The position numbers and the translations under genes were made by a program. DNA of 34,209 nucleotides from contig JAKQNP010000018.1 in the NCBI GenBank assembly GCA_029565675.1, positions 1 to 34,209 on the forward strand. Direction: 5' to 3'. The notes beneath the pieces were generated by a model. It was not told the origin of the DNA and made no database searches. It saw nothing but the letters and a program-made list of their open reading frames with translations. Positions 10,189 through 20,535 of the stretch are shown here, in pieces; positions within the stretch are counted from its first letter, which is position 1, and each line of letters opens with the position of its first letter. The DNA is from a bacterium. Lineage in GTDB: Bacteria; Zhuqueibacterota; Zhuqueibacteria; Residuimicrobiales; Oceaniaggregativiventaceae.

Positions 10189-12663
10189 ATGAGCACGAAA
10201 AACATGACCCTCTCTTTCCGATTGAAAAATCGCATTCGGGGATCGCGACTCGAGATTCACTGCATTCTTTTATTTTTTCTCCTATCGGCTCAGCTCTTTG
10301 CTCTGGAATCAGAGCAGGAAAACCGTCCGACAGTCGGACTCGTCCTGTCAGGCGGCGGAGCCAAGGGGTTCGCCCACGTCGGGGTGATCAAAACGCTCGA
10401 TTCCCTGCAAATTCCGATCGACTATATCGCCGGCACCAGCATGGGCGGTATCATCGGCGCACTCCATGCAGTCGGTTATTCCGGAGTGGAATTGGAAAAA
10501 ATCGCCCATCAGACCGATTGGCTGGAGATATTTTCCGATATGCCGTCCCGCCGCACTATGCCCTTTTTGCAAAAAAGGGACGTCGGTCGATATCAGGTCG
10601 AGTTCGGCCTGCAAGGCCTGCTGCCGCAGCCGCGCAGCGGTCTGATTTTTGGCCAAAAAATCGCTCTGCTCTTCAACAGCCTCACCTTTCCGTTCGAACG
10701 CACGAACCGCTTCGATGACCTGCCGATCCCTTTCCGCTGCGTTGCCGTGGATCTGGTCACCGGCAATGAGGTGGTGCTCGACTCTGGCTCTCTGGCGCTG
10801 GCCATGCGCGCCACCATGTCCATTCCCACCGTATTCAGTCCGGTGGAATGGGGTGACTCGCTCCTGGTGGACGGCGGACTGCTGAACAATCTGCCCGTCG
10901 ACGTGATCAAAGCGATGGGTGCTGACATCGTCATCGCTGTGGACGTCGCTTCAGACCTCAAACCGCGGGAAAAGCTCAACAGCGGTTTCGTCGTGCTGCA
11001 GCAGACTTTAGCCATTTTCGACCGTATTCGATGGGCGCAAAACCGCGACCAGAGCGATCTTTACATTCATCCTGATCTTGCCGATTTCACGGTTGCGGAT
11101 TTTAACGCCGAAAAAATTGAGCGAATGATGAAGCTCGGTGAAGAGGCGGCACAAAGCAAAATCCCCGAATTGTTGGAATTGCAAAGGCGCCACAACCTCT
11201 ATCGCGCCGAGAGCAAAAATGAACGGCTGCAAATCTCGTCCGCCGCCGTGGTGCAGTCGATCGCCGTCAACGGCAACACCTCTATCCCAGCCGATTTGAT
11301 CCTGCAAAACCTGGCCATCGCACCGGGTGACACCTTTTCCACGGCAGCCCTCAGCGATGCGGTGGCCGCCTTGAAAGCAGGAGGGCAATTTTCTGCAGTC
11401 CATTATGAGCTGACGCCTGTTGATGAAAATGGAATCAAGATTTCGCTGTACGTGCGCGAGGTCGAATCTCCGCAGATTTATGGGATTTCAATTTCGGGCA
11501 ACCAATCCCTTCCGTTCAGTTTCATCTATCGGCTGATCGGCCTCTCTCCCGGCGAACGGTTGAATGTTCAGGAACTCAATGCCCGGCTGATGGAGGTCTA
11601 TGCCCTCGGCTATTTCGAAACCCTGCTCTATGAAATATCGCCGATCGACACCAACCGCATCAACATGCATTTTTTCGTCAAGGAACTGCCGATTCGGCGT
11701 CTGCGAATGGGTATCCGCTACGATGACCACCACAAACTGGTGGGCAGCATCGGCTTGCTCGGCACCAATATTTTTCTGCCCGGTCTTCGCATGGAAAGCG
11801 ATCTGCAGTTCGCCGGGTTGACCCGCATCAGCACACGGATTTCCTATCCCTCGCGATATATGGCCTGGCCGGTATATCCCTATCTCCACTCGCAATTTAA
11901 AGAGTTGCCTACCTATCTCTATGACCTTGGCGGGAATAAAATCGTCCGCTACGGCGATCGTTCGCTTCAGGCAGGCATTGGATTGGCGATCCAGGTGGGC
12001 CGAGGTGTGAACGGAGAGGCTGAAATCCGCCAGGAGTGGATGGATATCAAGACGGCAATCGGTCTTGATGACCCGTCGCTGTTGGGGTTGCGAAAAGCCA
12101 GATTGCGTCAGTTTCATGCACAAGTTGTCTGCGATAACCTCGACGACACCTGGAACCCCCGCGATGGCCTTCTGCTGACTGCGGTGCACGAACAAAGCTG
12201 GAAAAAATTGGGTTCAGACCTCGCCTATCGATTCAGCTCGGCCAGCTTCGACATCTACCGGACCCTGGGGCGGCGCCACACCTGGCACTTTGGGTTGCTG
12301 GTTGGAAACGGCAAAAATCAACCGGTCTACAAGTTTTTCAACCTCGGCCATCCGAGTTATTTTCTCGGCACCGACTACGATCAGCTCCTGGCCAGGAGCG
12401 TCTCCCTGGTGCGCCTTGATTACAAAGTTCGCGTTCGTCCCAACATCTTCATCACGTTGACCGGAAACACCTGTCCAGCGATGACCAGCAGCTTGCGAGG
12501 TTACGAGTACCGATCGCACTGGGTAAACGGCATCGGACTGAGCCTCAAACTGATCTCTCCGGTTGGGCCGATCGATCTCTATGTCGCCCGCGGCGAGGCA
12601 TCGCCTTTTTCTCCCGGGCGCAAACAAAACAAATTCTTCCTGACCATCGGCCATCGCTTTTAA
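10189..12663 (+). CDS. Patatin-like phospholipase fused to POTRA and Omp85-type beta-barrel
   Basis: This 824-residue protein is predicted to be secreted to the outer membrane. A long basic N-region and hydrophobic stretch (residues about 23-38) form the signal sequence. Residues 47-310 are a patatin domain with oxyanion loop GGGAKG (55-60), nucleophile S84 in GTSMG, and catalytic D228 in LLVDGG. Residues about 351-505 look like two POTRA domains (VVQSIAVNGNTSIPADLILQ and PQIYGISISGNQSLPFSFIY). The rest is a beta-rich barrel ending FFLTIGHRF, a terminal-phenylalanine beta-signal. The architecture resembles type Vd (PlpD-like) proteins, in which a lipolytic patatin passenger is linked to a 16-strand barrel. 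A second in-frame ATG at codon 6 is an alternative start, because the Shine-Dalgarno for the first is weak. Confidence 0.9.
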   Translation: MSTKNMTLSFRLKNRIRGSRLEIHCILLFFLLSAQLFALESEQENRPTVGLVLSGGGAKGFAHVGVIKTLDSLQIPIDYIAGTSMGGIIGALHAVGYSGVELEKIAHQTDWLEIFSDMPSRRTMPFLQKRDVGRYQVEFGLQGLLPQPRSGLIFGQKIALLFNSLTFPFERTNRFDDLPIPFRCVAVDLVTGNEVVLDSGSLALAMRATMSIPTVFSPVEWGDSLLVDGGLLNNLPVDVIKAMGADIVIAVDVASDLKPREKLNSGFVVLQQTLAIFDRIRWAQNRDQSDLYIHPDLADFTVADFNAEKIERMMKLGEEAAQSKIPELLELQRRHNLYRAESKNERLQISSAAVVQSIAVNGNTSIPADLILQNLAIAPGDTFSTAALSDAVAALKAGGQFSAVHYELTPVDENGIKISLYVREVESPQIYGISISGNQSLPFSFIYRLIGLSPGERLNVQELNARLMEVYALGYFETLLYEISPIDTNRINMHFFVKELPIRRLRMGIRYDDHHKLVGSIGLLGTNIFLPGLRMESDLQFAGLTRISTRISYPSRYMAWPVYPYLHSQFKELPTYLYDLGGNKIVRYGDRSLQAGIGLAIQVGRGVNGEAEIRQEWMDIKTAIGLDDPSLLGLRKARLRQFHAQVVCDNLDDTWNPRDGLLLTAVHEQSWKKLGSDLAYRFSSASFDIYRTLGRRHTWHFGLLVGNGKNQPVYKFFNLGHPSYFLGTDYDQLLARSVSLVRLDYKVRVRPNIFITLTGNTCPAMTSSLRGYEYRSHWVNGIGLSLKLISPVGPIDLYVARGEASPFSPGRKQNKFFLTIGHRF

Positions 12664-12948: not shown

Positions 12949-13749
12949 ATGAGAAAATTTTTCCTTTCCGATGCCGCTGCTGTAGGTTTTATCTATTTGC
13001 TAATTCCCTATCTGTTGTTGGCGCCGATTGCAAACCTGACGGCTGCACCGATTATTTCGCACCGGCCGGTGAAAATGGCCAAAAAAGCGCAGCCGCTGAA
13101 CATCATCGCCCACATCGCCAGCGACGCAGAAATTGAATCGACGTATCTGCATTTGCGCTACGACGGCCGTTCCACCAAGGGAAAATTGCCGCGCCTGCAG
13201 ACCGCAGGTGATGTCCCCGTGCAGGTCAGGGTGACGGATGATCGGATCGCGCTTTTGAGTGCTGCCGACCGCAGCAGCCGCCAGACCGGCGTGGTCGAAG
13301 GCGGCACAATTGTCTATGTAACCGCTGTGCGCAACGGTTTTTATCGCGTCTATGTTCCAAACGGCGAAAGCGGCTATTTGCCTGCTTCCGGCGTGCAAAT
13401 CCTCTCCAGCGGTCACCGCTTCGGTGCTGCAGTTCCTGCATCCATTACCGCGGCGCAGGAATTTGCTTATCGAATTCAAGTCATCGATCGCAATGGCCAG
13501 AGCGCGGAAACCGAGTGGACCCCTGTGCGTCTGGTCAGCGCCGAAGACATCGCCTTGATGCAAAGCGGCAAAACCCCCTCTGCTGCCCTCACTGCGGCGT
13601 CCCCCAGCGGTGCAGGAACGCCCTTTTACCGCAAGGCGCTGTTTTGGATCTTTCTCGCCGCGACCGCTGGCGGAATCATCTATTTTCTCAGCCAACAAGA
13701 GGAATCCGCCGAGCAATCCGATGTCGATGTCATCGTCGAATGGAATTGA
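12949..13749 (+). CDS. Envelope protein with SH3b domain inside an Ig-like domain and a C-terminal membrane helix
   Basis: I do not recognise a named family. The 266-residue protein has an N-terminal signal or anchor (residues about 12-33). Residues about 35-85 (PLNIIAHIASDAEIESTYLHL) and 155-195 (AAVPASITAAQEFAYRIQVIDRNG) look like the two halves of one Ig/FnIII-like domain of the kind that ends in 'Y.I.A.D..G..A'. Between them, residues 88-153 resemble a bacterial SH3 domain (VQVRVTDDRIALLSAAD, GGTIVYVTAVRNGFYRVYVPNGESGYL). Residues about 230-248 (ALFWIFLAATAGGIIYFL) form a membrane helix followed by an acidic tail. The start has AAAGG upstream; an ATG 9 codons earlier (12922) is possible. 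It leads the cluster with the cohesin lipoprotein (31 nt downstream). Confidence 0.75.
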   Translation: MRKFFLSDAAAVGFIYLLIPYLLLAPIANLTAAPIISHRPVKMAKKAQPLNIIAHIASDAEIESTYLHLRYDGRSTKGKLPRLQTAGDVPVQVRVTDDRIALLSAADRSSRQTGVVEGGTIVYVTAVRNGFYRVYVPNGESGYLPASGVQILSSGHRFGAAVPASITAAQEFAYRIQVIDRNGQSAETEWTPVRLVSAEDIALMQSGKTPSAALTAASPSGAGTPFYRKALFWIFLAATAGGIIYFLSQQEESAEQSDVDVIVEWN

Positions 13750-13780
13750 AAACCGCCAATCCGAGAAGCGAGGATAACCT

Positions 13781-14605
13781 ATGCAAAAGCATCTGTTGAT
13801 TAGTGCATGCCTATTTTTGACAACCCTGGCCTGCCAATCCCTTGCGCCGACCGAACCGCACGGTGGAGATGTGATCACCGTGCAGACCGCACTGGATTTG
13901 ACAGCAGCCGGATTGTCGACCACCGGCCTCTCGAGATTGGCGCTTGAGGTCAGCGCCAGCGACATGGACACCGTGCGCACCGATTTGACCCTCAGCGACG
14001 GATATGCCCGCGCCAGTCTCAAGGTGCCGGCCGGTAAAAACAGAACATTTACTGCCCTGGGTTACCGGCAGAGCGATTTGGTTCTGCGCGGTTCCACCAC
14101 CAAAGATCTGCAAAAGGGCAAAGAAGTCAAGGTCGAAATCGAGTTTGACTATTTGTTGCCCACCGTGATCCTCTCCCCGCCCCGGTTAACCGTCGCCGCC
14201 GACTCGCAGTTTACCCTCTATCTGGCAGCGCGGCAGATGCAAAAATTGGCCGCCTTTGGCGCCCGCCTTACCTTTGATCCAACCCGATTGCGGGTGGAAG
14301 AGTTGGGACGTGAAAACGCGTTTTTAACCTCCCAGGGCGGCAGCATCACCCAGATGCAGTTCAGCCGCAACAATACGCTTGGCCAGGTCGACGTGGTTCT
14401 GGGTGTTTTCCCGGCAGCCAAAGCAGTCAGCGGCACCGGCAATATCGCCCGCGTTGTGTTCAAGGCGCTGCAAAACGGGCCGACCTCCATCGAATTGCAT
14501 CTCGATAAAAACACCCATGCCGACCTGGGGCTGTATGACGACCAGGCGCATGTGATTGAGGTGCTGGCGCTCTCATGCGCAGTTACCGTCACCAGTGCAC
14601 CCTAA
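13781..14605 (+). CDS. Cohesin-domain lipoprotein
   Basis: This 274-residue protein starts with a lipoprotein signal (MQKHLLISACLFLTTLACQS), with the likely lipidated cysteine at residue 18. Residues about 30-123 form a beta-rich domain (ARASLKVPAGKNRTFTALGY, then KGKEVKVEIEFDY). Residues about 126-270 look like a cohesin fold: VILSPPRLTVAADSQFTLYL, AFGARLTFDPTRLRVEEL, the VDVVLGVFP strand and GTGNIARVVFKAL. Cohesins bind dockerins, and the next gene encodes a dockerin-like module, so this may be its surface anchor; that pairing is inference. The ATG is preceded by GAGG. It lies 31 nt after the SH3b protein and 45 nt before the giant protein. Confidence 0.83.
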   Translation: MQKHLLISACLFLTTLACQSLAPTEPHGGDVITVQTALDLTAAGLSTTGLSRLALEVSASDMDTVRTDLTLSDGYARASLKVPAGKNRTFTALGYRQSDLVLRGSTTKDLQKGKEVKVEIEFDYLLPTVILSPPRLTVAADSQFTLYLAARQMQKLAAFGARLTFDPTRLRVEELGRENAFLTSQGGSITQMQFSRNNTLGQVDVVLGVFPAAKAVSGTGNIARVVFKALQNGPTSIELHLDKNTHADLGLYDDQAHVIEVLALSCAVTVTSAP

Positions 14606-14650
14606 TTTCGTCGGAGCAAAAGATTGTTGACCTTATCCAGAGGATCACAG

Positions 14651-17600
14651 ATGAATAAAGTCATTCACTTCGGACTTGCATTGGTACTGGCGCTGAGCGC
14701 TGAATTATCCGCGGCTTATCTGAATGCAATCGGTGCCGCGGATTCGCTCAATATGTGGGTAGCCGGCAACGGATCGACCCTTATCAAGACCAATGACGGC
14801 GGCAAAACGTGGCAACAGATCAAAACAGCCCCCGATAACAGCTATGAAGACATCTATGTCCGCAACGCCCAATCAATTGTCACTGCCGGGATGACCAAAC
14901 ACAACCCCAACGATCCCAATGCCACCCCCTATTCGATCTATTTTTTGGTCAACGAGACCACCGACGACGGTAAAAATTGGACGGAATCGATAGGCGGAGA
15001 TGGCAAGTATGTCTATTGCAAAGCGATTTCCGGAACCTGGAATCAAGAGGAAAACAGGGAAGTTCTGGTCGCCGCCTTGAACGTCGGCAGCCTGGTCTAT
15101 TCCGCAGGCACCAAAGGCGGATTCCAACAATGGACGCCAGCCTATGAAAAGATCGGTCACGCGATCCAGGATGTGCACCTGCTCGGCAACTACGGATGGG
15201 CAGTTGGAGATCGCGGCCTTTTGCTTAAATCCTATGATTATGGTAAAAATTGGTACGCCAAAAAAAGCCAGGTCACCAGTGATGTTGTGGCCCTGCATTT
15301 TGCTGATATCGATCACGGCTGGGCGGTCACTTTTGGCGGCGAAGTGATTTCGACCGTCGATGCGGGCGAAACCTGGAGCGTGCAAAAAATCGATGACGAT
15401 CTGCTGACCGGGGTGCATTTTTGTGATGCGCAGAACGGTATCGTTGTCGGCGCCAACGGCCAGGTCTACCACACCGTCGACGGCGGACAGATCTGGCAGA
15501 AAATTGATCTCAACCTCACCACCTGGGTGGGTTTTTTCGATGTGGTGATGCTGCATCCGGGCAAAGCCTGGGCAGTGGGTCCCGATGATGTGGTGATGCC
15601 GATCTTTTTGGCTGGCAATTCGCTTCCTGCTGTCGATCCGCAAACCATTTCCGCAATTTGGGGACCGCCGGATCAGCTGAATGTCTGGCAAACCTTTACC
15701 GTTCCGCTTACCGCTTCAACTTTTGGCGTCGATGACGCCACCTTTGCCGGCGTGCTGGCCAACGTCAGCAAAATCCGTTTTCGCACCGAGATGATGGATG
15801 GCGCCGACACCGGCAAGCTCGACTCGGTGCGCATCGGCAACCGTTTTTTCAGCGATTTCCGCCTCGGCCAGGACGACTGGGCTGCCGAGGGCGACGGCAC
15901 CATGACCTGGATCAACAGCGGCGGCGCGGACGGCAACGGCTTTATCCAGATCTCTGACTGGGCTTCCGGCGATTGGCATTGGGCTGTGGCTCCCCCGGCC
16001 TGGAGCGGCGACTGGACCGGGCTGATCGGCCAGAATATCACCTTTGCCTATCAAACCGACAACTGGTGCTGCGGCTATACCGGCGCCATCGAAATCAGCA
16101 ACGAACCGATCAACCGGCTGCTGCTGACCACGCCGCGCTGGACCCTGCCGCCCGGATCGAGCGAGCAACTGACCCTCAGACTCTCCAACGCTTTGGCAGA
16201 GAATCTGGCCATTCAGCTCGATTCCTCCAATCCGGCCAGTTTCACCGTCGAGGCGAGTGCAACCATTCCCGCCGGGCAAACCAGCACCAACGTGACCGTT
16301 GCCACACCTTCTGACGCAGTGGACGGCAGCTTTTCGGTGATCACCGCCTCCGCCGCCGGTTTTCCGGCTGCTCGGCTCACGCTGACCATCGACCAGGCTG
16401 CTGCCGAGAATATCATTGCACCGAATGCCACCTATAACGGCACCCTCGCCGGTCAGGTCAGGGTTTATTATGCCGTACCCGTGACAGCCGATGGCAATCT
16501 CAGCGTCACCCTGACACCTACCCAGAGCGCCAATATCCAACTCATGCTCTGCACCCCGGAGAAAATTGAGATCATCAGATCCGACTCCTGGGGAAATCCG
16601 CTGACCTTGAACGTCAACGGCCTCAAACCCGACACCTACTTTATTTCCCTTTGGGGATATTATGCCGGAGACAGCAAAATCGCCTTTTCGTTAAAAACCC
16701 AATTTGCCGTCGCAGCTCTGCAAAACGACGTCGAGCCAAACGACACTTTTACCGCGGCTAAAATTTTGTCTCTAAACAATCAGGTGACAGGACACATCGG
16801 CTACGACGGACGCTGGACAGGCAATCCCGCCGACCTGGTCGATTGGTGGCAAATCACCACGGTCCAGGATGGGGCTTTGACCGTCACCCTCAGCCAGATC
16901 GAGGATGACAATCTGCAGCTCGCCATCTACCGACCGGACGGCAGCACGGAAATGATTCGACAGGATACGTGGGGCGATACCACCAGTCTGACCATCAACA
17001 ACGTCAGAAACGGCACCTTTTTTGTGCGCGTCTATCGATATTCGACCAATTTTACACCGTATACCCTGCAGAATACCTTTGCACCTGCAGCCAGCGACAA
17101 CGATCCGGAACCAAACGACTCTGTCGCGACGGCCTCCGAACTCGTCCTGGCGAAAACAGTCACCGGCCATCTCGGCTATGACGGATACAGAGAATTGCTA
17201 GGCAAGGATACGGTTGACTGGTGGCATTTCACCCTGTCAGAAACCAAAGACCTGAAAATCAAACTCACCCAGAATGCCGCGGCCAACCTGAGAATGCAGT
17301 TATATAAAGCCGACGGCGTCACGGTTGTTCACAACGGCAGCGACACCTGGGGCGCCGGCTACGAAATGAACGTCGCCAATGCCGCTGCGGCGAAATACTA
17401 TCTGCGCATCATGACGTATGGGATTCATGATTCCTACTCGCTCACCATAGGGGCGCCCACCACCGAGCCGCAGACCCTTTCCGCGGACTGGGGACCGCCG
17501 GATCAGATGAACACCTGGCAGACCTTTACCATTCCGCTCACCGCTTCGACTTTTGGCGTTGACGACGCCACGTTTGCCGGCGTGCTGGCAGGTGTCAGCA

Positions 17601-20494
17601 AGATCCGTTTTCGCACCGAGATGCACAACGGATACGATACCGGTAAACTCGACGCCGTGCGAATCGGCAATCGATTTTACAGCGCTTTTCGCTATGGCCA
17701 GGAAGACTGGGCCGCCGAGGGCGACGGCACCATGAGCTGGATCAGCAGCGGCGGACCGGACGACAACGGTTATATCCAGATCGTCGATTGGGGCACAGGC
17801 GACTGGCATTATGCAGCGGCGCCGCCTTCCTGGAGCGGGAACTGGATCGATCTGATCGGCCAAAATATCACCTTTTCCTATCAGACCAACGTTGTCTGTT
17901 GCGGTTATCGCGGCAAAGTCGAAATCAGCAACGAACCGGTCAACCGGCTTTTGCTGACCACCCAGCGTTGGGTCATTCCGCCGGGTGAAAGCGAACAGCT
18001 CACCATCAAAGTGACCGAGCCCCTGGCACAGGATCTCAACGTTTCGCTCAGTTCTTCCAGCACCGCCAACTTTACCATCGCCGCGAGCGCCACCATTCCG
18101 GCCGGACAGACCAGCACCTTCGCCGCCGTGCAGGCAAAATCCGGTGCAGCCGAAGGCGGTTCTTCGGTCATCACCGCCAAGGCCGGCGGCTTTCCGGACG
18201 CGCGCCTCACGCTGACCATCGGCAAAACCGCCGAGCCCGACACCGGCATCGGGGTGCGCATCACCGCCATAGACACGCAAAATTTTCCCGCCATTTCCTG
18301 TTGGGTTACCGCGATCGACAGAAGCGACAACACACCGGTCGATGAGATCACGGCAGTCCAGGTCAGCGTCTCCGAAGACGGTGCGAGCCAGACTGCAACA
18401 ACCGTGAAAAAAACCGGGCCGGGAATGGGCAGCAAAGCTGACATCGTCTTTGTCGTCGATCTCACTCTGGCCACCCAGGATCTGCTGGACAGGTTCGCCG
18501 GCTGGGCCGGCTGCATCGACGAGTGGGCCAGAGACGCGACCGTGGGCATCGACGCCCGCTATGGACTGGTCACCTTTGGCAGCGAAGTGGAAAACACAGC
18601 CGAGTTCAGCAGCGATTTCGCCGAGATCCAGGCCCAAATCAATGGATTGGTTGTTAAATCGAGCCCTGACGGCAAGGCCAATGCCCTGGAAGCGCTGGAA
18701 AAGGCAGCTGAATTTGACTATCGGCCCAATGCCGTCCGCCTGGTGGTTCTGATCACCGACAAGCCCTATTATCAAGCAGGACAGGCCGGTGCCGGGCAAA
18801 CCGACTTGACAACTTATGAGATAGCGCTGAAGCTCTATCTGAAAGAAATCATCCCCATGGTCCTGGCGCCGGATCAACCCGATTTCCGCGGTCTGGTGGA
18901 GGAAGCAGGCGGATTGTTCTTCAAATTGGACATCGATCGATTGTCCACCACCCTCTGTCTGATCGGCCGCATCCTCGGCAGCCAGACCGTCATCACCTAT
19001 GTGAGCAGCGACAAGCAGCCGGATGACGGTGTGCGCAAACTGAAGGTGACCATCACGCACAATGGGCAGACCCATGTCGCCGAAACCCTGTTCGTGGTCG
19101 GATCCGCCCGGGTGGCCGTCACCCCAGCCGATATCATCGGACGCGTCGGCGCCTCCTTTGAAGTCGCAGTCGAGACGACGAGCATGGTCGATCTCGGCAT
19201 GGCGCACTTTTATCTGCAATACGATGCGGCCAAAATCAAGGCCGAACAGATCGTCGAAGGCGATTTTCTCTCCCAGGGCGGGGCATCGACCACCTTTGTG
19301 GCGGATATCGAACCGACCAATTCGCGCATCGACATCACCGCAACCCGCTTCGACAGCCAACAGATCGGCGCCAGCGGCAGCGGCGTCCTGTGCCGAGTCC
19401 GTTTCACGGTGCTCGTCGAGAATTGCGCCAGCACCCTGACCCTGTCGGCCGCGGAACGCGTCTTTAAAAAGCTCAACGATACCGTCATCCCGGTCACAAC
19501 CGCCGGGGCGACCCTTCACCCCATATCCACCGGCGGCCAGTCCGATTTGCTGGGCGATTTCAATGAGGATCTGGATATCGACACCCACGACTTTGCGCTG
19601 CTGGCCACCTACTGGAAACCGGCCAACACCGCCACCGGCGACATCGGCCCGGCGACCGGCACGCCGCCGTTTCTCGCCGTTTCGCCCGACAATGTGGTCA
19701 ATTTTGAAGATCTCTTTGTCTTTACCCGCATGTGGAACTGGTACCATGCCAATCTTTCCGCCTACCCAAACAACGCGCCTCTGCAAAAATCGCCGGTCAT
19801 AACCAGCCAGTGGCAGCTGTTGAACGGCTCGACTGCGGCTGCGACGCTGGAATGCGCCCTGCTGGCGCAAAATGTGCAAGATGCGGCCATGGGGCATCTG
19901 GTGGTGCGCTATCCGGCTGAGGCCTGGAACCTCATCGAGGCCGCACCGGGAGAAGTGCTGGGCGAAGCGCCGGTCTGGCTCGTGGAGCACGACGAAAAAA
20001 CCGGCACCATCGACATCGCCCTGGCGCAGCTGGCAGAAAGCGGCGAAACCACCACCTGGGCAGGCAGCGGCTCGCTCCTGCTTCTCACCCTCGCGCCAAA
20101 GAACTCGGCAACCGGCGAATTGCGTGCCGAAACCATCGATCTGCGCAATCCGGACGGGCAGCCGATAGCGGTGCTGCAAGCGGAGCATCTGTCCCTGGCA
20201 GTCGATTCTCAACCGCTGCAATTCCGCCTCGAGCCCAACTATCCCAACCCCTTCAACAACCGCACAAGGTTGGCGTTCAGCGTGCCGCAGCAGTCGCAGG
20301 TCACCATTCAAATCTTCGATGTGCTGGGCAGACCGGTGAAGGAACTGGTCGATCAGACCTACCAGGCCGGTCAATATTCGGTGGATTGGCAGGGTATGGA
20401 TGCGGAAGGCCGGGCAGTGGGCAGCGGCATCTACTGGATCCGCATGCGAAGCGGGACTTTTGAACAGAGCCGGCGGATTCTGTTGCTGAAGTAG
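14651..20494 (+). CDS. Giant secreted multidomain protein: photosystem II stability-factor-like repeats, duplicated laminin-B-like units, PPC domains, VWA, cohesin, dockerin-like, sorting tail
   Basis: This 1947-residue secreted protein begins with a signal peptide (residues 1-22). Residues 23-320 hold BNR/Ycf48-like repeats (ADSLNMWVAGNGSTLIKTND, GKTW, GWAVGDRGLLLKS). Residues 331-580 and 941-1190 are two copies of a unit whose second part resembles a laminin-B domain (DWAAEGDGTMTWINSGG, GDWHWAVAPPAWSGDW). Between them, residues 586-937 contain three PPC-type domains, two opening with EPND. Residues about 1261-1455 form a VWA-like domain (ADIVFVVD) with a degenerate metal site. A cohesin-like domain (about 1486-1627), dockerin-like module (about 1631-1703, GDFNEDLDIDTHDFALL), second cohesin-like domain (about 1717-1850) and FlgD/Por-type tail (1857-1947, PNYPNPFN...SGIYWIRM) follow. 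ATG at 14651 has AGAGGA upstream. Tail type suggests T9SS-like export. Confidence 0.9.
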   Translation: MNKVIHFGLALVLALSAELSAAYLNAIGAADSLNMWVAGNGSTLIKTNDGGKTWQQIKTAPDNSYEDIYVRNAQSIVTAGMTKHNPNDPNATPYSIYFLVNETTDDGKNWTESIGGDGKYVYCKAISGTWNQEENREVLVAALNVGSLVYSAGTKGGFQQWTPAYEKIGHAIQDVHLLGNYGWAVGDRGLLLKSYDYGKNWYAKKSQVTSDVVALHFADIDHGWAVTFGGEVISTVDAGETWSVQKIDDDLLTGVHFCDAQNGIVVGANGQVYHTVDGGQIWQKIDLNLTTWVGFFDVVMLHPGKAWAVGPDDVVMPIFLAGNSLPAVDPQTISAIWGPPDQLNVWQTFTVPLTASTFGVDDATFAGVLANVSKIRFRTEMMDGADTGKLDSVRIGNRFFSDFRLGQDDWAAEGDGTMTWINSGGADGNGFIQISDWASGDWHWAVAPPAWSGDWTGLIGQNITFAYQTDNWCCGYTGAIEISNEPINRLLLTTPRWTLPPGSSEQLTLRLSNALAENLAIQLDSSNPASFTVEASATIPAGQTSTNVTVATPSDAVDGSFSVITASAAGFPAARLTLTIDQAAAENIIAPNATYNGTLAGQVRVYYAVPVTADGNLSVTLTPTQSANIQLMLCTPEKIEIIRSDSWGNPLTLNVNGLKPDTYFISLWGYYAGDSKIAFSLKTQFAVAALQNDVEPNDTFTAAKILSLNNQVTGHIGYDGRWTGNPADLVDWWQITTVQDGALTVTLSQIEDDNLQLAIYRPDGSTEMIRQDTWGDTTSLTINNVRNGTFFVRVYRYSTNFTPYTLQNTFAPAASDNDPEPNDSVATASELVLAKTVTGHLGYDGYRELLGKDTVDWWHFTLSETKDLKIKLTQNAAANLRMQLYKADGVTVVHNGSDTWGAGYEMNVANAAAAKYYLRIMTYGIHDSYSLTIGAPTTEPQTLSADWGPPDQMNTWQTFTIPLTASTFGVDDATFAGVLAGVSKIRFRTEMHNGYDTGKLDAVRIGNRFYSAFRYGQEDWAAEGDGTMSWISSGGPDDNGYIQIVDWGTGDWHYAAAPPSWSGNWIDLIGQNITFSYQTNVVCCGYRGKVEISNEPVNRLLLTTQRWVIPPGESEQLTIKVTEPLAQDLNVSLSSSSTANFTIAASATIPAGQTSTFAAVQAKSGAAEGGSSVITAKAGGFPDARLTLTIGKTAEPDTGIGVRITAIDTQNFPAISCWVTAIDRSDNTPVDEITAVQVSVSEDGASQTATTVKKTGPGMGSKADIVFVVDLTLATQDLLDRFAGWAGCIDEWARDATVGIDARYGLVTFGSEVENTAEFSSDFAEIQAQINGLVVKSSPDGKANALEALEKAAEFDYRPNAVRLVVLITDKPYYQAGQAGAGQTDLTTYEIALKLYLKEIIPMVLAPDQPDFRGLVEEAGGLFFKLDIDRLSTTLCLIGRILGSQTVITYVSSDKQPDDGVRKLKVTITHNGQTHVAETLFVVGSARVAVTPADIIGRVGASFEVAVETTSMVDLGMAHFYLQYDAAKIKAEQIVEGDFLSQGGASTTFVADIEPTNSRIDITATRFDSQQIGASGSGVLCRVRFTVLVENCASTLTLSAAERVFKKLNDTVIPVTTAGATLHPISTGGQSDLLGDFNEDLDIDTHDFALLATYWKPANTATGDIGPATGTPPFLAVSPDNVVNFEDLFVFTRMWNWYHANLSAYPNNAPLQKSPVITSQWQLLNGSTAAATLECALLAQNVQDAAMGHLVVRYPAEAWNLIEAAPGEVLGEAPVWLVEHDEKTGTIDIALAQLAESGETTTWAGSGSLLLLTLAPKNSATGELRAETIDLRNPDGQPIAVLQAEHLSLAVDSQPLQFRLEPNYPNPFNNRTRLAFSVPQQSQVTIQIFDVLGRPVKELVDQTYQAGQYSVDWQGMDAEGRAVGSGIYWIRMRSGTFEQSRRILLLK
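15641..16390 (+). repeat. Intragenic duplication, copy 1 (laminin-B-like unit)
   Basis: This 750-bp segment of the giant gene recurs at 17471-18220 at a constant offset of 1830 bp at every checkpoint I compared, so no net insertion or deletion separates the copies. In 15661-15720 against 17491-17550 I count 8 mismatches in 60. It encodes the jelly-roll-like strands, the laminin-B-like part and the following beta domain ending LTLTI. Confidence 0.93.
17471..18220 (+). repeat. Intragenic duplication, copy 2 (laminin-B-like unit)
   Basis: This is the second copy of the 750-bp unit at 15641-16390. Both copies keep the CCGY motif, the EISNEP strand and the RLLLTT linker. Differences are mostly silent or conservative. 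The copies are separated by the three PPC-type domains. Confidence 0.93.
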
Positions 20495-20501
20495 ATCATT
20501 C

Positions 20502-20535
20502 GGGTGGTGTCCCGCACGGGACACCACCCTTTTTT
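20502..20535 (+). terminator. Strong rho-independent terminator after the giant gene
   Basis: A perfect 12-bp stem, arm GGGTGGTGTCCC (20502-20513), loop GCAC and the complementary arm (20518-20529), is followed by six T. It starts 7 nt after the stop codon. Its core GTGTCCC/GGGACAC is shared with other intergenic hairpins in this window. Confidence 0.93.

Follow-up and report, generated by a model that had tools for sequence, protein, structure and literature searches.

The clostridial cellulosome has anchoring scaffoldins, and its surface anchor bears a cohesin. Cohesins and dockerins are widespread outside cellulosomes as well, where their function is described as not known (PMC5244752). 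In Archaeoglobus fulgidus, a non-cellulosomal cohesin-dockerin pair binds with high affinity (PMC9705933, citing Voronov-Goldman 2011), and ANME archaea have cohesin/dockerin proteins for which a role at the cell surface or in cell contact has been proposed (PMC9012536, PMC5244752). Candidatus Stygibacter (Cloacimonadota) was reported to have a cellulosome-like system with a cohesin protein carrying a type IX-type C-terminal domain (PMC8542988). These accounts come from excerpts of the four papers, and the excerpts contain no description of a lipoprotein-cohesin/VWA-cohesin-dockerin unit. No link of KSB1 with dockerins or type IX secretion was found in the partial literature collection that was searched.

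Here we describe a cluster of three genes from a 34,209-nt bacterial sequence (the window, i.e. the whole stretch of DNA analysed), encoding an SH3b protein, a cohesin lipoprotein and a giant protein with a dockerin-like module (Table 1). With moderate confidence, we read the trio as a dedicated, horizontally mobile, non-cellulosomal cohesin-dockerin tether, in which predicted binding of the two partners would hold an adhesin-like giant at the outer surface.

Layout and products of the cluster

As shown in Table 1, the three frames (the giant counted from its ATG) are adjoining, with gaps of 31 nt (SH3b-lipoprotein) and 45 nt (lipoprotein-giant). A sequence-only reading had placed them less than 50 nt apart and closed the cluster with a strong terminator, and both statements held: the 12-pair stem was the strongest of 6 terminators predicted in the region, a number not above that in shuffled sequences. 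That reading had also seen no enzyme domain, and none was found in any of the three proteins by Pfam and a further profile search.

Table 1. Features of the three-gene cluster, in positions of the window
Feature	Position	Strand	Basis or description
SH3b / Ig-like protein, 266 aa	12949..13749	+	N-terminal signal sequence, C-terminal TM helix, conserved C-terminal tail ending W[EN]
Cohesin lipoprotein, 274 aa	13781..14605	+	Lipobox Cys18 (13832-13834), small beta domain, then cohesin
Cohesin domain of lipoprotein, residues 127-271	14159..14593	+	AF2 model compared with solved cohesins
Giant surface protein, 1947 aa	14651..20494	+	Pfam; an orthologue in each order relative with a continuing contig
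Variable N-terminal head of giant: Ycf48-like BNR repeats, PPC domains, two Laminin_B-like/sheet repeats	14720..18220	+	Pfam
VWA domain, about residues 1270-1450	18458..19000	+	Pfam VWA_2 26.5 bits, under cut-off 27
Cohesin 1 of giant, residues 1492-1612	19124..19486	+	Pfam over cut-off; AF2 fold match
Dockerin-like module, residues 1634-1703	19550..19759	+	Canonical loop 1, degenerate loop 2, insert GDIGPAxGTPP, near-invariant FTRMWNW
Cohesin 2 of giant, about residues 1717-1836	19799..20158	+	Beta sandwich modelled with confidence by AF2 (model residues 240-355)
Type IX secretion type A sorting tail, residues 1864-1943	20240..20479	+	PF18962 46.7 bits
Intrinsic terminator	20502-20529	+	12-pair stem, 9 G-C, T-run; stem followed by TTTTTTATTT; closes the cluster

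Elsewhere in the window, positions 10189-12663 (+) encode an 824-aa fusion of patatin, POTRA and Omp85 that resembles a type Vd (PlpD-like) autotransported phospholipase. Four clustered tRNA genes (Thr, Gly, Tyr and Thr; 186-624, - strand) were the sole matches of an Rfam search. An ORF of 1075 aa antisense to the giant (17300-20527, - strand) is probably a compositional by-product.

The first gene had been described as a TM-anchored SH3b/Ig-like protein. SH3_3 of Pfam scored 27.7 bits in it (cut-off 27) and was matched in 20 of 20 orthologues at E ≤ 0.1; a G within the TM segment and the C-terminal Trp were both invariant in the alignment, and the description stands.

The second product scored 24.1 bits for Cohesin (PF00963), exactly equal to the Pfam cut-off of 24.1, and a sequence search of solved structures with it gave no match. 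Its Cys18, lying after a hydrophobic stretch, was invariant in 20 orthologues. The AlphaFold2 (AF2) model (pLDDT 82.6) showed a cohesin fold in the second half of the protein, with Z 17.1 to 4uyp (rmsd 2.1, 136 residues aligned) and 16.7 to 2xdh; the rmsd to cohesins was 2.1-2.2 over 128-136 residues, and Foldseek gave TM 0.79 against 2xdh. The Pfam score at the cut-off, the invariant cysteine and the modelled fold confirmed the earlier view of a lipoprotein bearing a cohesin-like domain.

The head of the giant contains Laminin_B-like/sheet repeats at about residues 330-580 and 940-1190; the heads of orthologous giants instead carry FG-GAP, PQQ, PKD, extra VWA or CarboxypepD_reg modules. PPC, PSII_BNR, Por_Secre_tail and FlgD_ig were all over the Pfam cut-off in the window protein, and VWA_2 exceeded it in many orthologues. 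The metal-site motif of the VWA domain (about residue 1287, near 18509) reads DLTLA here vs DVTGS in most order relatives, and is altered also in L053 and L064, which suggests loss of metal binding in the clade of the window protein. Cohesin 1 scored 32-37 bits (cut-off 24.1), and in an AF2 model spanning residues 1478-1865 (the cohesin-dockerin-cohesin part) its top structural match was A. fulgidus 2xdh (Z 18.0, rmsd 3.0, 131 residues). For cohesin 2 of the window giant, Pfam gave no Cohesin match; its best Foldseek match was 3l8q, a cohesin dyad. Across lipoprotein and giant, modelling gave cohesin folds at Z 16.7-18, and the cohesin-like domains and FlgD/Por-type tail noted in the giant from the sequence alone were both recovered.

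The dockerin assignment fared less evenly. Dockerin_1 (PF00404) scored 12.9-14.8 bits in the window giant, below the cut-off of 22.9, and we therefore call the module dockerin-like. It was matched at E ≤ 1 in 7 of 20 giant orthologues, with a best E of 0.016 and a best-scoring orthologue at 21.4 bits (L061). Type I dockerins have two calcium loops of the DxNxDxxxxxxD type and a pair of F-hand helices. In the giant, D159, D163, D167 and D170 of loop 1 (numbering of alignment A4) are invariant or nearly so; loop 2 is degenerate, keeping D203, N207 and D210 and missing its first two acidic ligands. A profile of the region aligned with several solved dockerins over the first repeat only, and AF2 placed helices at model residues 168-175 and 208-227 with pLDDT mostly below 50. 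By its pattern the dockerin is real; by profile and fold its support is weak. It is nonetheless the best-conserved stretch of the giant: over 14 matched species the dockerin scored 0.70, ahead of 0.60 for the lipoprotein cohesin, 0.55 for cohesin 1 and 0.52 for cohesin 2. This ranking fits a dockerin-lipoprotein contact as the constrained one, without proving it.

Distribution, block transfer and pairs in other phyla

The order SH3b-lipoprotein-giant was found in 21 copies from 20 of the 22 genomes of the order, most of them titled candidate division KSB1 at NCBI and some Calditrichota or "bacterium", so the three-gene neighbourhood asked about at the outset is conserved. Of the three outcomes named beforehand as refuting the sequence-only reading, two, missing cohesin or dockerin folds and an unconserved gene neighbourhood, did not occur, with weak support for the dockerin fold. 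The SH3b gene lay directly upstream of the lipoprotein gene in all 21 copies. The giant lay directly downstream in all 18 copies with a continuing contig; the contig ends in the other 3. Lipoprotein identity across these 20 genomes was mostly 31-45%, reaching 71%, and no full-length lipoprotein homologue was found in the other searched genomes of the class. In a sample of the phylum, the cohesin-dockerin-cohesin core of the giant gave E ≤ 1e-29 only within this order, and 1e-16 to 1e-18 elsewhere in the class. Flanks of the trio were unrelated beyond the genus: genes neighbouring it in the window were common to the same genus only, except the patatin-Omp85 gene, which occurred in one family member.

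A search of the 22 genomes with the dockerin segment gave one match per genome, inside the giant. Second matches were rare (G001, in a lone paralogue, and G013, in a second trio); G005, with no detected lipoprotein, gave a fragmentary match, and in the genomes lacking a match a contig end cuts the giant short. That the lipoprotein might also hold other dockerin proteins is not supported by this search, as each genome has about one dockerin of this subtype, located in the giant.

Second giant-like proteins (VWA-cohesin-dockerin-cohesin-tail) with no lipoprotein or SH3b neighbour were seen in G001 (L157:3892-7446) and apparently, as fragments with masked bases, in G005 (L164:4303-6553). The genome of the window has a separate cluster of a different cohesin class (G000:C62:731613-739846, L046), which includes a 984-aa frame of cohesin-dockerin-cohesin-sorting tail; no cohesin lipoprotein was noted alongside.

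G013 (family f2) carries the trio twice. Of the two copies, one is similar to the trios of its congeners, and the other grouped with the genus of the window in all three gene trees (99/99, 100/99 and 100/100). Contamination was considered as the source of this odd trio and rejected, because the TonB-receptor gene beside it is 86% identical to that of the congener G009 (and only distantly similar to f1) and the adjacent DNA is collinear with G009. G009 is collinear on both sides and has no trio there: it has about 0.7 kb in the place of 8.0-15.5 kb of L064. From a short match at the right-hand boundary, the insert can be placed at about 7 kb, little longer than the three genes themselves. The empty site and the size of the insert thus imply that the trio travels as a block. 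Inspection of the insertion revealed no transposase, tRNA or long repeat. These comparisons indicate that the extra trio was acquired as one block from another family and that the unit moves between lineages.

Beyond the order, the core of the giant was used as the query, the lipoprotein family alignment being too divergent for this; a scan of genome contigs with the single lipoprotein sequence gave no match. A shorter pair, a cohesin lipoprotein adjacent to a VWA-cohesin-dockerin protein, was found in three MAGs of other phyla. In L086 (NCBI title Zixibacteria 4484_93) and L087 (AUK075), a lipoprotein consisting of lipobox and cohesin lies upstream of a 1114-aa VWA-cohesin-dockerin-cohesin-tail protein. 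In L090, on a contig of 67-70% G+C throughout from a MAG titled Deltaproteobacteria, two cohesin lipoproteins, recognised by the family profile but missed by Pfam, lie upstream of a VWA-cohesin protein of 1013 aa, which terminates at its dockerin, "VNFQDLFVFTRMWNWYRFERQS", and has neither cohesin 2 nor the sorting tail. The lipobox cysteine is present in the lipoprotein partners at all three loci. As the L090 giant ends at the dockerin, the shared core comprises the cohesin lipoprotein(s) and the dockerin, and as it has no type IX tail its exporter must differ. The SH3b protein was not found beside the pairs at L086, L087 and L090; by this comparison it is an order-specific add-on.

In the cohesin tree, the lipoprotein cohesins of all these phyla formed one clade (97/97), apart from cohesins 1 and 2 of the giants, and all three classes were distinct from five further cohesins encoded in the genome (96/93). 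With such short domains and several long branches, the deeper branching is unsure. Small cohesin lipoproteins were also seen in Neomarinimicrobiota MAGs (L162:12368-12931, L163:5445-5978 and L091:5717-6652); those of L162 and L091 lie downstream of giants ending in the same FTRMWNW dockerin plus tail, a different gene order.

Export, tethering and competing explanations

The tail of the giant scored 43.3 bits for TIGR04183 (cut-off 23). The host genome encodes SprA (E 1.9e-46) and a PorU sortase (892 bits, cut-off 420), and has about 100 sorting-tail matches, most of them over the cut-off. With this machinery, the matches and its own tail over the cut-off, the giant is probably type IX secretion cargo, and the FlgD/Por tail is best read as a type IX export and sorting signal.

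In the tether that we favour, the C-terminal tail of the giant would direct it to the type IX secretion system for passage across the outer membrane. We infer that the lipoprotein sits in the outer membrane facing outwards; to our knowledge there is no validated lipoprotein surface-export signal for the host phylum. The exposed cohesin of the lipoprotein would bind the dockerin-like module, and this contact would attach the giant to the cell by its constant C-terminal half (VWA-cohesin-dockerin-cohesin). The VWA domain and the N-terminal half, whose modules vary by species (BNR, PPC, PKD, FG-GAP or PQQ), would point outwards and may serve adhesion or contact with a matrix. The SH3b/TM protein would be an order-specific accessory, probably working on the periplasmic side. 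If the tether is true, it is a lipoprotein-based way to keep type IX cargo on the cell surface.

Because the giant itself bears two cohesins next to its dockerin, pairing in cis or between giants is conceivable. The type IX tail of the giant could also alone serve as the anchor. In the main rival, the dockerin-like module docks within its own chain, or does no more than stiffen it; cohesin 1-dockerin-cohesin 2 is then one rigid stalk, with the giant fixed by the type IX sortase through its tail and the lipoprotein cohesin acting elsewhere (e.g. binding another protein or aiding export). We give it a real though minor chance. In its favour, cohesin 1 and the dockerin are in every case neighbours in the chain, separated by a short linker, another protein of the genome shows the cohesin-dockerin-cohesin order, the type IX machinery is present and lone giant-like paralogues exist. 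However, AF2 packed the dockerin on neither cohesin, at a dockerin confidence (pLDDT below 50) too low to decide, and docking in cis leaves unexplained both why the single partner retained in the different phyla is a cohesin-only lipoprotein and why the L090 giant can be devoid of cohesin 2 and tail.

Chaining between giants was judged unlikely. Since a single dockerin of the same subtype accompanies one or more cohesins in every version of the giant, the proteins could be linked dockerin-to-cohesin into a self-assembling surface fibre with the cohesin-only lipoprotein as its membrane-bound base, displaying heads and VWA domains repeatedly. The three genes would then be a transferable fibre kit.

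Lower still we rank an assembly role inside the cell envelope, with the lipoprotein and the SH3b protein staying within and forming a checkpoint in the export or assembly of the giant. The helical TM segment, glycine-rich core and conserved tail of the SH3b protein are typical of an inner-membrane anchor, and genes for accessory factors often lie upstream of those for their cargo. Against such a checkpoint, the shorter pairs of other phyla have no SH3b protein, the cohesin fold is known for binding outside the cell, and the L086 lipoprotein is only a lipid anchor and a cohesin. Chance proximity of common extracellular modules, conceivable in a genome with several other cohesins and about 100 sorting-tail matches, is contradicted by the synteny of 21 copies, the block transfer with an empty site and the orthologous pairs in other phyla.

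Comparison with known systems

The trio shares with the clostridial cellulosome the lock-and-key module folds and a cohesin on the surface anchor, but has no cellulase, carbohydrate-binding module (CBM) or multi-cohesin scaffold, and a lipoprotein replaces the cell-wall anchor. In a cellulosome, dockerin-bearing carbohydrate enzymes are arrayed on a multi-cohesin scaffoldin with a CBM; in the trio no enzyme or CBM domain was found, and the one dockerin of this subtype in each genome belongs to the giant. The trio is a minimal, conserved and transferable set without enzymes, in which a single anchor and a single client are both obvious. It turns the question of what cohesins and dockerins do outside cellulosomes into a binding experiment with two proteins, and offers a predicted new orthogonal cohesin-dockerin pair.

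Stygibacter is, like the hosts of the trio, an uncultured bacterium, and it has a cohesin protein with a type IX-type C-terminal domain, but its system includes dockerin-bearing enzymes and carbohydrate-binding modules, of which the trio has neither (PMC8542988). A. fulgidus likewise has cohesin and dockerin with no cellulosome, and its cohesin 2xdh is the closest structural match of cohesin 1; the dockerin of the trio is, by contrast, a divergent subtype, and the excerpt of PMC9705933 describes no lipid-anchored partner, VWA domain, type IX export or order-wide trio. ANME archaea are, like the hosts of the trio, non-cellulosic organisms (PMC9012536, PMC5244752). As far as the excerpts of these papers go, they differ in having large, variable sets with multi-cohesin, scaffoldin-like proteins, whereas the trio is one conserved, dedicated set per genome.
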